From Deltaproteobacteria bacterium (GTDB taxonomy: Bacteria; JAGRBM01; JAHCIT01), in NCBI GenBank assembly GCA_026129095.1, contig JAHCIT010000002.1, positions 310,001-374,000 on the forward strand: a stretch of DNA of 64,000 nt. Reading direction: 5' to 3'. Shown here piece by piece: positions 4,000 through 12,031 of the stretch (positions are counted from its first letter, which is position 1; each line of letters opens with the position of its first letter). The translations under genes and the position numbers were made by a program. The notes under the pieces are model-generated. The model was not told the origin of the DNA, ran no database searches, and worked only from the letters and a program-made list of their open reading frames with translations.

Positions 4000-6156
4000 G
4001 TGCTGAAAAAAACATTTATACCGGCGGCAGCCGGAGTCCTGGCGGTTATCTGGGTGCTGGCCAGCTGTGGTGACACCGCCAGCGTCACGATCGAAGGCAT
4101 CGAGGGCCAGGAAGACATCTACATGGAGGAGGCCAGCGATGCGATGGCCTACGACCCGACCGCGACCTCGTATTCCGGTACGGTTGCCTACTCCAATCCG
4201 AATGCGCTCCTGGGGAGCAAGCGGGGCGGTTCGCCCCTGTGGGACTGGTGCTACGGCAAGCCCGACAGCGCCATCCTGCCGCCTGATCCCCGCACGCAGG
4301 TCCAGCCCGGAGTGAGCGACGGCCGCGCTGTCCACTTCAACGCCTTCTGGAAGGACTGCCATGTGGACGAAGCCGCCGTTAAGGAGGCTGGCCACGCCAA
4401 GACCTGCGGCGAGCTCCGCCAGCGGTTCAACCGCGGCGACGAGCTGCTGCTCACGGGCGGAGCCAAGGTGGGCGCCCTGTTTTCCGGCGACAATCCCATG
4501 TCCCTGGAGGCCGGCTTCGGCATCGCGACCTTCACCGCCGCCCAGTTCAACAACGTCTGGAAGATCTGGGGCAGCCACCTCTGGCGCCCGGACAACTTCG
4601 ACCTCCTCGTGAGCGAACGTTACGGTTCGGGCTTCAAGACCGGCAGCAATCCGTACCCGAAGCCGGGCGAGGATCCCAACCGGACGAACGGCGGCACCGG
4701 CAAGCTGCCGGAGATGTTCACCCAGCTCCGCGATCCAAAAACCGGCAAATGGACCGGCCGCATCGGGATCACCTGTCACGCCTGCCACAGCGGTGTCGTT
4801 GGCAACACGCTCACCCACGGCGGCGGCAGCAGCCTGGCGGATCTCAACCTGTTCCTGCGCGACATGCTGCCGCTGGGCTATCTCGCCTCGTTCGCGGTGA
4901 TCGCCAACCTCAACCACACCCGCGGCACCAACAACGCGAGCGATATCAACCTCGCCTTCATCTTCCCCGACGAGAAGCTCCTCACACCGTCGGAGTTCTT
5001 CGGTGTCCTCACGTCGGGCACTTCCGCCGGCATGGACACTCCCGCCTGGTGGAACATGGGCCACCGCCCCGTGAAGTTCGCGGACGGCGTGTTCCCGATG
5101 GATGCCCCGCGCGTCGATATGGTGTTCTACACCCCCTTCTTCGGCCTGTTCGGCGGTCTCCTCGGTAAGATCAGCGAGGCAGGGCAGGACTGGATGCGGG
5201 CGAACGGTCCGCCGCTCAACACCTGGATCGAGAGCCTGAAGGCCCCGGTCTACCCGCTCGCCGTCAACAAGACGCTGGCCGAGCAGGGCGCCGTGCTGTT
5301 CCACACGCTCGACATGTGGGACCCCACACGGAAGAACCCGATTCCCCGCCCGCAGGGCAACGGCTCCTGCGCCGCGTGCCACGGGGCCTATTCACCGAAG
5401 TTCGTGAACGACCCCACGTTCCTCGTGAGCCCGGAGCTGGAAGGCATCGCCAGCTACATCGTTCCGCAGAACATCATCGGAACCAACCCGGTGCGGTGGC
5501 AGGTCAACAACGAGTCCGTGCAGAAGGCCGGAGCCAAGAACTTCTTCGGCTATCCGACGACCTACGGGACCGAGAACGACTGCGGCCCCCAGAACCAGAA
5601 GCGCCTGCGCGGCGACCGGGAACTGGGCTACCTCGCACCGCCGCTCTATGGCGTGTGGGCGACCGCCCCCTACTTCCACAACGGCTCGGTGCCGAACGTG
5701 TGGGAGGTGCTCAAGCCCGCCGACCGCAAGCCCATCTGGCGCCGCAAGTCCAAGCCCCAGCCCTCATGGAAGCTCGGCCAGCTGAAGAACGTCATCATGG
5801 GTTTCGACACCGACATCGCCCGCGCGTATGACCCGGTGAAGATGGGCTGGAAATACGACACCGTCGCCTGCAAGTGGCGAACCCTGCTGAACCCGTCGGT
5901 GACGCCGTACATCAACTGCGACCCGAACGACGAGTACAATGACCCGCTGTTCCAGATGATCCTGAACCCGCTGTTCTCGAACATCATTCTCGCCTGGAAC
6001 ATACTGTTCCCGCCGATTCTCAGCGATTCGCACATGGAAGATCGCAAGATCTTCAACACCCACCGCTACGGACAGGGCAACAAGGGCCACGAGTTCAACT
6101 CGGTGCTCACCGATGCCGAGCGGCTCGCCATCATCGAATACCTGAAGACACTGTAG
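4000..6156 (+). CDS. Dihaem c-type cytochrome lipoprotein, RoxA-like oxygenase/peroxidase superfamily
   Basis: I place the start at the GTG at 4000 because GGGAGGAG precedes it by six bases; an in-frame ATG at 3979 would put that motif inside the gene. The 718-residue protein begins with a lipoprotein signal ending in LASC. It has two CxxCH haem sites, CHACH (259-263) and CAACH (457-461), about 200 residues apart. It also has the APYFHNGSVPNVWEVL segment (about 557) typical of the MauG/dihaem peroxidase superfamily. Length and haem spacing fit rubber oxygenase RoxA, which cleaves polyisoprene to oxo-aldehydes, better than the much shorter cytochrome c peroxidases. Other members of this superfamily are uncharacterised, so substrate is open. 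It would sit in the periplasm or on the outer membrane. Confidence 0.75.
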   Translation: MLKKTFIPAAAGVLAVIWVLASCGDTASVTIEGIEGQEDIYMEEASDAMAYDPTATSYSGTVAYSNPNALLGSKRGGSPLWDWCYGKPDSAILPPDPRTQVQPGVSDGRAVHFNAFWKDCHVDEAAVKEAGHAKTCGELRQRFNRGDELLLTGGAKVGALFSGDNPMSLEAGFGIATFTAAQFNNVWKIWGSHLWRPDNFDLLVSERYGSGFKTGSNPYPKPGEDPNRTNGGTGKLPEMFTQLRDPKTGKWTGRIGITCHACHSGVVGNTLTHGGGSSLADLNLFLRDMLPLGYLASFAVIANLNHTRGTNNASDINLAFIFPDEKLLTPSEFFGVLTSGTSAGMDTPAWWNMGHRPVKFADGVFPMDAPRVDMVFYTPFFGLFGGLLGKISEAGQDWMRANGPPLNTWIESLKAPVYPLAVNKTLAEQGAVLFHTLDMWDPTRKNPIPRPQGNGSCAACHGAYSPKFVNDPTFLVSPELEGIASYIVPQNIIGTNPVRWQVNNESVQKAGAKNFFGYPTTYGTENDCGPQNQKRLRGDRELGYLAPPLYGVWATAPYFHNGSVPNVWEVLKPADRKPIWRRKSKPQPSWKLGQLKNVIMGFDTDIARAYDPVKMGWKYDTVACKWRTLLNPSVTPYINCDPNDEYNDPLFQMILNPLFSNIILAWNILFPPILSDSHMEDRKIFNTHRYGQGNKGHEFNSVLTDAERLAIIEYLKTL

Positions 6157-8102: not shown

Positions 8103-8522
8103 TTACTGGTTGATGACCGGCGCAGGGCCTTCCGAAGCGGCCTTGAGCGCCGCCCGCAGGGCCTCTTCCAGCGTTGATCCCAGCCGTGCATGGCCGCGGA
8201 ACACGACCGCGACGGCCTTCATCTGGGTCGTGCGGTTCTGCTGCGAGCGGAGGAAGATCGGCTCCACATAGATCACCTCGTTGCCCACGATGAGCGACAT
8301 CGTATGACCGCGGATCACATCCGCGCCCATGCGGTTCCACCACGAAAGCTGGCGGCTGATATCCGGGTTCTGGTCGATGGCGGCGTCCGCCTGCTCGGGG
8401 CCCGGATAGAAGCGGCCCTTGGGCACCATCAGCATGGTGATCTTTCCGTAGTCGTCGCCGTCCTGGTAGGCGATGGGCAGGCCGCGAAGGTTCAGTGCCT
8501 TCTCGCCGGTGAACGGCATCAT
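8103..8522 (-). CDS. Detached C-terminal segment of a UPF0182 protein
   Basis: The 139-residue product starts MMPFTGEKALNLRGLPIAYQ and continues with NGDxYG-like, PKGRFYPGPEQADAAIDQ, ISRQLSWWNRMGADVIRG and a VEPIFL segment, ending in GSTLEEALRAAL. This series is what I recognise as the conserved end of UPF0182 (PF03699) proteins, normally part of the same chain as the large protein encoded just upstream. Here it begins five bases after that gene's TAA, in the -1 frame. Reading its frame upstream of the ATG gives EGAVSL, which resembles the family's usual lead-in, so the ancestral join seems to have been broken by a frameshift. It may be made by reinitiation, with GAGAAGG as a distant ribosome-binding site, or the gene may be damaged. 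Confidence 0.75.
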   Translation of the reverse strand: MMPFTGEKALNLRGLPIAYQDGDDYGKITMLMVPKGRFYPGPEQADAAIDQNPDISRQLSWWNRMGADVIRGHTMSLIVGNEVIYVEPIFLRSQQNRTTQMKAVAVVFRGHARLGSTLEEALRAALKAASEGPAPVINQ

Positions 8523-8527
8523 GAGGC

Positions 8528-11500
8528 TTACTGCACCTTCTCGGACGATTCGGGCAGCGTGCCGCCCGTCTCGAACAGGTAGTTGATCGGCTCGGCCGAG
8601 AAAGTGATCGCCTTGCCGTTGTCCATGACCGCTCCGAGCACCTCGTCGGCGTCGTCCATCATATCTTCCATGTTGAAGAAATACATCGGATCCCGCATCT
8701 GGTAGTAGATGTAGACGTCATCGAACTGCACGTGGAAGAACTGGACCGGGTAGGTCAGCTGCGACCGCACCGCGGCCGGCATCTCCTTCCCGTCGGTGAA
8801 CAGGCCAGGGTAGATCTTCGACCAGGTTTCGATCAGCGGCGAGTCCGATATCTTGTAGAACTTCACCTCGCCGCTGTAGGCGTCCACGGTCGCCTTCACC
8901 GAGTCCTCGATGTAGTTGGCCCAGCGGTGCGGCCGCGGGTAGCGGGTGCGCTCGTCGGACTTGTCGCCGAGGTCGCCCATCCAGCTGTTCGGGTAGGCAT
9001 TGCTCGTCGTCAAGCCGTTCAAGACCCACGTGATGCGGTCACCGTTGGCGAACGCATGGCCGTTCGTGTCGTAATAGAGGAACGGCGCGATCCGGTTCAG
9101 GCGCTCCACCGGAACCCGGTTGTAGTGGACGCGGGTCTCGCTGGTAATGAGGCCGCTGAACAGCACATCGAAGAACTGCCCGCTCTCCCAGCCGAAGGCG
9201 AGCCGCTTGACCAGCGAATCGATGTGGACACCGGTGCCGTCGCCCGGCGGCAGGATGAACTCGGCCCGGTCCTGTTCGGTCGGGTAGTCCAGTTCCTTCA
9301 TGTTCTTGACGTTCGTGTAGGCGATCGTGCCGGAACCCTCGCCATAGTAAACGCGGGGGTTCTCGACCTTGAGAACATCGTAAGCCGTCTGGACGGGGAT
9401 GTTCTTCGACACGTAGACCGGGTCGCCCTCAGGCGTGCTCTGCCCGGCCTTGCCCATCACCAGGCCATAGCCGTGGGTAAACAGCATGTACTGCTGCCCC
9501 CACCAGGCGAGCCAGGGCTGAGGCTCCACCAGCGGAACCTCGCGGATGGCGCTGAAGAACAACTGCTTCTCGCCGTCGATCGCGTAGCGGACCGAATCGA
9601 TGCCGAGGAAGTTGTAGTAGGCGCGCAGTTTCTGCTGCTGCCACAGGATTTCCTCGGTCGGCCCGTAGATGATCTTGTCGCCCTGGGTCTTGAGGATGCG
9701 GAGCGAGTGCTGCGGATCGAGCTGGGCTTCCAGATAGGAAGTGAAGCCCGGCCACAGCGGCGCATTGCGCACCGCCGGGCTGTTGAGGATCTCTTCAGCC
9801 GTGGGGATCGGGTCGCCGTGCCAGTTGGGGATGAACTCCTTCTGGGTGACCTTGTTCAGGTCGAACCCCTTGCGGGTCGCCTCGATGTGGTTCCCAAGGT
9901 GTCCGAGCTGGATAACCGGCTCGTTCGGGCGGACATAGATGTTGCCCTTGATGCCGACGAGGCCCTTGAAGCCGAAGTCAGCCAGGATGAGCAGGAACAC
10001 GAGGTTCCGCAGCTTGATCTGTCCCTCGCGCCAGCCCTCGGGCGGCTGCGCCTCTCCGGCAACACGGTTCAGGTTGTTCAGGTACATCACCACGGCCATG
10101 GTAATTCCGAGAATCACGAGCGTCGTGACGTAGATGTAGTTCAGGTTGGAGAGCAGCCCCTCGGTGTCGAGGTAGGTGGCGCCCTGCTTGATGACGTGCT
10201 TCTCGTTGGCCTTCAGGAGGATGTTGTAACGTGACAGCCATTCCCCGGCAGCGAGAATCACGCCCCAGATCGTCAGCGGAATGAGGACCGGACGGGTCGC
10301 CAGGCGGCCCGCCAGCTGCCAGAGCCGCGAAAGGCCGGTGCCGGAAAGCTGGCGGCCCTCGTTGGCCCACACCATGTAGGAGCAGCCGATCGCCGACAGG
10401 ACGCCCGCGGTCGTTCCGAACAGGAGCGCATACCAGATCGTCCAGTAGTTCGACAGCTCGTAGACGTAGAAGCCGAGATCGTTGCCGAACACCGGGTCGG
10501 CCTCGCCGAACGGCTTGCCGCCGAACAGCAGGAAGTCGCGGTACTCAAGGCACAGGAAGTAGGCGCCCACTGAACCGGCGATCAGGGCCAGGTTGATGAT
10601 GAACCGGCGCTGCCTTGCGGTGACGGGGTTCATGAACGCTGGCAGGGCGACCGAAACGGCCGTCATCAGGAAGCCGATGATAAAGAGCTTCGCGCCCATG
10701 CCGAAGTTGGTCCAGAAGACCGATTCGTGTCCGACCGCTTCCAGGAACCACTTGTCGAGCAGCACGATGCTCAACCGGTCAAGGAAGAACAGGCCGGTAA
10801 AGATCAGGCCATAGACCGAGAACCGCTCCCACAGGGCGAACGCGTGGGGAGCGCGCTCCAGCGGCACCTGCGGGAAATCGGCCGGTGCATCCTGCTCGAC
10901 CGACGCGCCAGGCTGGTCCTTGGGTTCGGCCTTGCCGTCGCTGCGGCGGAACGCCGCCAGGATCTCGGCCAGCGTCGTCTTGACCGAGCCTTCCCAGCCG
11001 TTCGTCACGAGGAAGTGGAAGTTGCCGGCCGAGAACAGCCGCACGCCCAGGTGCAGCATGGCGATGGTCATCGACTCGGGGAATCCCATGCCGCCCACGT
11101 ACATGGCGGCCGCCAGCGCCCACTCGCTCTGGCCGATACCGCCCGGCGTGAACCGGACGAGCCGTGCGATGTGGTAGGCGATGATCGCCATCAGGGTCGT
11201 GTTGTAGTCCGGCATGATGAACACATGGGTCGCCGTGAACCCCTGCGCAATGAAGTAGAGCGCGCCGTCCTGGAGCTCGAAGGCTGCCAGCGACAGGAAG
11301 CCCAGCCACACGGCCGTGATCGGCTGGCCCGCCACCAGGCGGATGCCCTGCCGGGCGCGGTCAAGGAAGTTCTTGACGCCGCCGGTGTCCTCGGTTTCGG
11401 GGTAGGTACGGCGCACAAGGCCGTAGGCCAGCCCAAGGATGAAGAGCGCCCAGAAGATCTGCGCGAACCACTCGCTCCAGCCGAAAATGGCCAGACCGAC

Positions 11501-12031
11501 GAAGCCGAACACCATGATCTCAAAGATGTCGAACAGGCCCTGGATGAACACCACGGACTTGGCGCGGTCCAGCGGGACGCCCTCGTCCTTCAGCGCGAGC
11601 GCGGCGGCCGTGTTGCCGAAGCCGAACGGGGCGACCTTGTTCCAGGACAGGCTGTAGCAGTAGGCGCGCAGGTTCTGGCCGAGGTTGGTCTTGAGACCCA
11701 GGAGCTTGGCGATCCCGTGGAACTGGAGCGCCTTGAACGCGAACACGAAGAAGAAGATGGCGACGACGAGCAGGATGATGTCCCAGCGGACCGGATCCTG
11801 CGACTGCAGGTAGTACTTGGGATCCGGAATGTAGGTGTATCCGGCGTTGCGGTCGTGGTACTGGATGATGCCCGCCTTGATCATCAGGTCGAGGAGCCGG
11901 GTGTTGGCGAGGAAGTTCCAGTATCCGCCGTGGTAGACCAGCGTACTGAGGAGCGCGATCATCGCCCCCAGGGACAGGACAAGTCCCGCCACATAGTTGC
12001 CAGTGCGTTCTTGGTTGCGTGGTTCGCTCAT
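8528..12031 (-). CDS. Fusion of a flippase-like (UPF0104/PF03706) domain and UPF0182 membrane domain
   Basis: The 1167-residue membrane protein has two parts. Residues 1 to about 350 form a multi-helix module with RFTPGGIGQSEWAL near 290-303, the PGGIGxxE hallmark of the lysylphosphatidylglycerol synthase TM/flippase-like family. A polar linker (about 355-395) follows. The remainder matches UPF0182 (COG1615): further helices, then GGKPFGEADPVFGNDLGFYV near 505-525 and a long soluble domain of the type seen in actinobacterial and cyanobacterial members. I do not know this fusion from described proteins. The UPF0182 part ends early, at LPESSEKVQ, and its last conserved block is encoded separately at 8103. 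AAGGAG lies 12 bases before the ATG. The function of UPF0182 is unknown. Confidence 0.8.
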   Translation of the reverse strand: MSEPRNQERTGNYVAGLVLSLGAMIALLSTLVYHGGYWNFLANTRLLDLMIKAGIIQYHDRNAGYTYIPDPKYYLQSQDPVRWDIILLVVAIFFFVFAFKALQFHGIAKLLGLKTNLGQNLRAYCYSLSWNKVAPFGFGNTAAALALKDEGVPLDRAKSVVFIQGLFDIFEIMVFGFVGLAIFGWSEWFAQIFWALFILGLAYGLVRRTYPETEDTGGVKNFLDRARQGIRLVAGQPITAVWLGFLSLAAFELQDGALYFIAQGFTATHVFIMPDYNTTLMAIIAYHIARLVRFTPGGIGQSEWALAAAMYVGGMGFPESMTIAMLHLGVRLFSAGNFHFLVTNGWEGSVKTTLAEILAAFRRSDGKAEPKDQPGASVEQDAPADFPQVPLERAPHAFALWERFSVYGLIFTGLFFLDRLSIVLLDKWFLEAVGHESVFWTNFGMGAKLFIIGFLMTAVSVALPAFMNPVTARQRRFIINLALIAGSVGAYFLCLEYRDFLLFGGKPFGEADPVFGNDLGFYVYELSNYWTIWYALLFGTTAGVLSAIGCSYMVWANEGRQLSGTGLSRLWQLAGRLATRPVLIPLTIWGVILAAGEWLSRYNILLKANEKHVIKQGATYLDTEGLLSNLNYIYVTTLVILGITMAVVMYLNNLNRVAGEAQPPEGWREGQIKLRNLVFLLILADFGFKGLVGIKGNIYVRPNEPVIQLGHLGNHIEATRKGFDLNKVTQKEFIPNWHGDPIPTAEEILNSPAVRNAPLWPGFTSYLEAQLDPQHSLRILKTQGDKIIYGPTEEILWQQQKLRAYYNFLGIDSVRYAIDGEKQLFFSAIREVPLVEPQPWLAWWGQQYMLFTHGYGLVMGKAGQSTPEGDPVYVSKNIPVQTAYDVLKVENPRVYYGEGSGTIAYTNVKNMKELDYPTEQDRAEFILPPGDGTGVHIDSLVKRLAFGWESGQFFDVLFSGLITSETRVHYNRVPVERLNRIAPFLYYDTNGHAFANGDRITWVLNGLTTSNAYPNSWMGDLGDKSDERTRYPRPHRWANYIEDSVKATVDAYSGEVKFYKISDSPLIETWSKIYPGLFTDGKEMPAAVRSQLTYPVQFFHVQFDDVYIYYQMRDPMYFFNMEDMMDDADEVLGAVMDNGKAITFSAEPINYLFETGGTLPESSEKVQ

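Follow-up and report, generated by a model that had tools for sequence, protein, structure and literature searches.

The proteins of family UPF0182 (Pfam PF03699; NCBIfam NF000825 and NF002707) are single chains, in which predicted transmembrane helices are followed by a large soluble domain that runs to the C-terminal end. In the available portion of PMC7231039 the function of UPF0182 is called unknown, and the homologue treated there is described as having six transmembrane regions and a signal peptide. Neither a split of UPF0182 nor a pairing with the LPG_synthase_TM family (PF03706; flippase-like TIGR00374) is mentioned in the available portions of PMC7231039, PMC3582634 and PMC10433963.

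The locus described here lies in a window of 64,000 nucleotides, the whole stretch of DNA that was analysed. Its product resembles UPF0182 in the predicted order of transmembrane helices and large soluble domain, as hydropathy gives seven segments at residues 406–694 of the window protein followed by 615 residues without any. Seven helices are likewise predicted before the soluble part in five relatives. Furthermore, the two open reading frames of the locus, ORF A and ORF B, jointly span most of the Pfam model together with a conserved tail beyond it. The gene differs from the family in being written in two frames, and its branch carries or adjoins an LPG_synthase_TM domain. Its scores are far under the cut-offs of NF000825 and NF002707, as are those of the unbroken gene of the relative G001. 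The LPG_synthase_TM part matches its own family above the Pfam cut-off, but it differs from it in being fused to UPF0182, and the match to TIGR00374 stays under the cut-off of that model. A gene caller would annotate two proteins at this locus, where the family has one.

All features of the locus are on the reverse strand. ORF A (positions 8528–12031) encodes 1167 amino acids, in which an LPG_synthase_TM domain precedes most of UPF0182 in one chain, and ends in LPESSEKVQ followed by TAA. The LPG_synthase_TM domain at its N-terminus, absent from the original prediction, is matched at 11042–11800 (residues 78–330) with 76.2 bits against a curated cut-off of 33.4 bits. UPF0182 is matched in ORF A with 387.9 bits, the membrane part (model positions 6–352) at 9752–10810 and the soluble part (model positions 356–679) at 8654–9661. 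ORF B (8103–8522) encodes 139 amino acids, which match model positions 706–770 with 46.8 bits and continue into a conserved tail that the model does not include; both scores exceed the curated PF03699 cut-off of 27 bits. The 139 residues are thus the normal end of UPF0182, as originally proposed.

The stop codon of ORF A occupies 8530–8528 and is followed by GCCTC and then by the ATG at 8522 that opens ORF B, in the -1 frame relative to ORF A. This agrees with the original description of a start codon five bases past the stop. Extended upstream of its ATG, the frame of ORF B reads EGAVSLMMPFTG, which bears out the earlier remark that this frame resembles the ancestral junction. The GC3 signal is in the phase of ORF A in the 90-nt block 8630–8541 and in the phase of ORF B in the block 8540–8451; this flip, together with the 71% identity of ORF B to the protein of G001, puts the relation between the two frames far beyond chance. 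No homopolymer of more than three nucleotides was found within 8500–8560.

A set of 15 close relatives was assembled for the junction, consisting of G001, the nearest relative among the genomes compared and a member of the same order, and 14 named loci found by scanning contigs with a two-sequence alignment; a contig scan with a single protein had returned two pattern matches and no relative. The 14 loci come from metagenome-assembled genomes (MAGs) labelled as Planctomycetota, Chloroflexi, Acidobacteria, Wenzhouxiangella, Gammaproteobacteria, Thiohalocapsa, Saprospiraceae, Caldilineaceae and Deltaproteobacteria, and from Thiohalocapsa halophila DSM 6210. Among the genomes compared, G001 is the only other one from the phylum and class of the window organism. 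In their best segments the close relatives are 40–67% identical to the window protein (G001, 50%), and ORF B is 71% identical to G001 over the matched stretch and 65% over the whole aligned tail. The junction is read through in one frame in all 14 named loci, and in 15/15 when G001 is included, whose protein is encoded by one open frame of 1341 codons.

The alignment also locates the change. The spacing Q-[FY]-x5-[FY]-T-P-E is kept in all 15 close relatives, with 18 nt between the Q codon and [FY]TPE. In the window the Q codon is retained at 8531–8533 and the TTC ACC of FT starts from 8513, leaving an interval of 17 nt (8514–8530) that contains the TAA. The reading frame is broken at the place expected for the aromatic codon, and the F or Y found next to Q in 15/15 relatives is missing. 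In agreement with the original prediction, the alignment with these relatives supports a single ancestral chain, broken by a net change of one nucleotide near 8528. At the level of sequence comparison, homology is unbroken across both frames and the shift is placed at this position.

Both frames remain typical of the family. The UPF0182 part of ORF A keeps 148 of 159 invariant residues (columns with at least nine other sequences). In columns with at least 14 other sequences, the last 224 residues of ORF A keep 66 of 69 and ORF B keeps 41 of 42. As ORF B is undecayed, the break is either very recent or not real. A decayed pseudogene was considered as well and is unsupported by this degree of retention.

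The wider survey gave UPF0182 matches in 51 of the 290 genomes searched. In 48 of these 51, not counting the genome of the window, the match crosses model positions 679–706 in one piece, and in the window genome it comes in two. In G103, one of the remaining two, the match runs no further than position 447, close to the end of its contig; in G252, the other, it is weak and below the cut-off. A distant set of 33 loci, the 30 best of the 290-genome search and three others, was examined by tblastn with ORFs A and B. In all 32 that were testable the sequence is continuous from the ORF A match to the ORF B match across the junction, and 30 of the 32 are without any stop in the translated stretch. 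The stops in the other two lie away from the junction, in L037 where the membrane part meets the soluble part and in L054 upstream of the gene start. L011 gave no ORF B match in this search and so stands outside the 32, although in a separate comparison both of its matches fall within a single open frame, identical for the two in length and reading phase. G062, G203 and G267 each have an additional, divergent UPF0182-like place that stops short of the C-terminal end and is outside these counts. Taken together, 47 of 47 testable loci (48 examined) are continuous at the junction; the comparison with related genomes, named earlier both as a check and as one half of a refutation, found the frame uninterrupted at this place in every one, in relatives that are not close.

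The gene in the window is a broken member of UPF0182, because a TAA (8528–8530) and a change of frame stand between its transmembrane part and its C-terminal end while all 47 testable relatives are continuous. No second UPF0182 copy was found in its own genome, which is 96.65% complete; all three UPF0182 matches belong to this locus. Two single breaks at other places were seen in the relatives. L037 (genome G169) has a TAA within UPF0182 at the membrane/soluble border, in a frame that is otherwise intact. L029, from the Chloroflexi MAG AL-N1, has an in-frame stop at codon 152, counted from position 6001, in the LPG_synthase_TM part of a fused gene.

An accidental frameshift of net one nucleotide, either a recent real mutation or an error in the consensus, is very probably the explanation. 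The ancestral state would have been one gene for a membrane protein, with the LPG_synthase_TM domain followed by UPF0182. One frameshift of net one nucleotide at the codon after the conserved glutamine, about 140 codons before the gene end, would have broken it. Translation of the sequence as written would go no further than the TAA, leaving a product without the final strands and helix of the predicted extracytoplasmic domain. The locus resembles other single-nucleotide frameshifts in assemblies in its net change of one base, its undecayed downstream frame and the lack of a counterpart in relatives. It differs from them in having a chance ATG five bases past the new stop. The accident indicated by these data is a private one, unshared by the testable relatives. 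Of the three causes raised in the original prediction, frameshift mutation and sequencing error are retained; a true split gene is disfavoured, as 47/47 testable relatives are continuous.

For the two forms of this accident the consequences are opposite. That the mutation is real and arose very recently in the population sampled is given an even chance. In that case the only copy of UPF0182 seen in the genome has probably lost its function, a loss that we infer from the position of the break. An error of consensus or assembly, with one base wrong in the record and the gene of the organism intact, would entail no functional loss, and we consider it a serious candidate, at somewhat below an even chance. 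It is favoured by the undecayed state of ORF B, which fits a recent mutation equally well, and by the record being an assembly of 23 contigs from a phylum with two genomes only among those compared. The single breaks that other genomes show in genes of this family, the in-frame stop in the LPG_synthase_TM part of L029 and the TAA of G169, also speak for it. The missing homopolymer speaks against it, as do 30 other genes of the window, mainly close neighbours on the same strand. In a Pfam scan none of the 30 formed a pair matching consecutive parts of one family, with 4/30 lacking any Pfam match. A generally noisy assembly is disfavoured by the same scan of these window genes. The absence of a homopolymer longer than three nucleotides and the lack of an apparent break in the 30 genes together give a slight lean towards a real mutation, 30 genes being few.

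A functional split gene, in which termination and re-initiation at the TAA-5 nt-ATG yield two separate chains from ORFs A and B that then assemble, is very unlikely. The closeness of stop and start is what coupled re-initiation would use, and an AGAAGG at 8536–8541, 13 nt before the ATG, forms a duplex of -6.1 kcal/mol. The 13 predicted gene starts span -1.7 to -10.3 kcal/mol, and 11% of the 141 internal ATGs used as controls have a duplex at least as strong as that of this weak Shine-Dalgarno-like sequence. Re-initiation at the ATG at 8522 is therefore possible, and it is not specially signalled. ORF B is intact and conserved, and since the close relatives are 40–67% identical, a split confined to a species or genus would be compatible with the comparison. 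Against a functional split, however, none of the 47 testable relatives is split at this place (0/15 close and 0/32 distant, none of them of the same genus), and the lost aromatic residue is one that all the close relatives keep.

The predicted structure bears on the same question. The model of the relative L025 has a mean pLDDT of 62 and a pTM of 0.64, and the residue at the cut corresponds to its Q786, in a predicted strand (785–790) within a block of mean pLDDT 84. The cut thus falls inside a predicted beta strand and away from a domain border, which argues against two independent chains. Loop charges in five relatives show a positive-inside bias that places the N-terminus on the inner side of the membrane and the tail on the outer side, the bias being weak in the UPF0182 part of the window protein. 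The tail is therefore predicted to lie outside the membrane, yet ORF B is without a hydrophobic segment at the hydropathy threshold used. The claim of a true split gene thus fares poorly against the uninterrupted relatives, the position of the cut and the missing hydrophobic segment of ORF B. A two-chain UPF0182 restricted to this lineage, in which ORF A and a separately started 15-kDa ORF B product rejoin and so complete a beta-rich outside domain, is most improbable. If the split were nevertheless true, it would mean that a conserved membrane protein, as yet uncharacterised, is naturally cut within a beta strand. Sequence searches of the PDB for a relative gave one match at chance level (E 0.87) and, in a second search, none at E 0.1. 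Foldseek returned no match at E 0.001 or better, which says little given the mediocre L025 model.

Either programmed -1 frameshifting at the ribosome or slippage during transcription could in principle produce the complete chain without any change to the gene, as one -1 step joins the frames of ORF A and ORF B; this we regard as hardly credible. The last 120 nt of ORF A contain no strict X-XXY-YYZ heptamer, the only one in slippery phase lying about 2.3 kb upstream. The site likewise lacks a homopolymer of more than three nucleotides, and the change of frame is absent in the 47 testable relatives. Programmed frameshifting was rejected as a candidate because a strict slippery heptamer is missing near the ORF A stop.

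The association with LPG_synthase_TM extends beyond the window. The domain is fused before UPF0182 in six sequences, namely that of the window and those of G001 (L005), L022, L023, L024 and L029. It is encoded separately, just after UPF0182, in six loci (L025, L026, L027, L030, L031 and L035), of which L031 belongs to Thiohalocapsa halophila DSM 6210. In these six pairs the first possible LPG_synthase_TM start lies -110 to +3 nt from the UPF0182 stop. In L028, L032, L033 and L034 the contig ends upstream, and the downstream DNA (about 1.2 kb in L028) is without an LPG_synthase_TM match. The fusion in six sequences, together with the tightly packed pair in reverse order in six loci, suggests that UPF0182 and LPG_synthase_TM work together at the membrane. 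Judging from the family name of the partner, this pairing would provide a functional lead for UPF0182, towards the handling of lipids or of the envelope.
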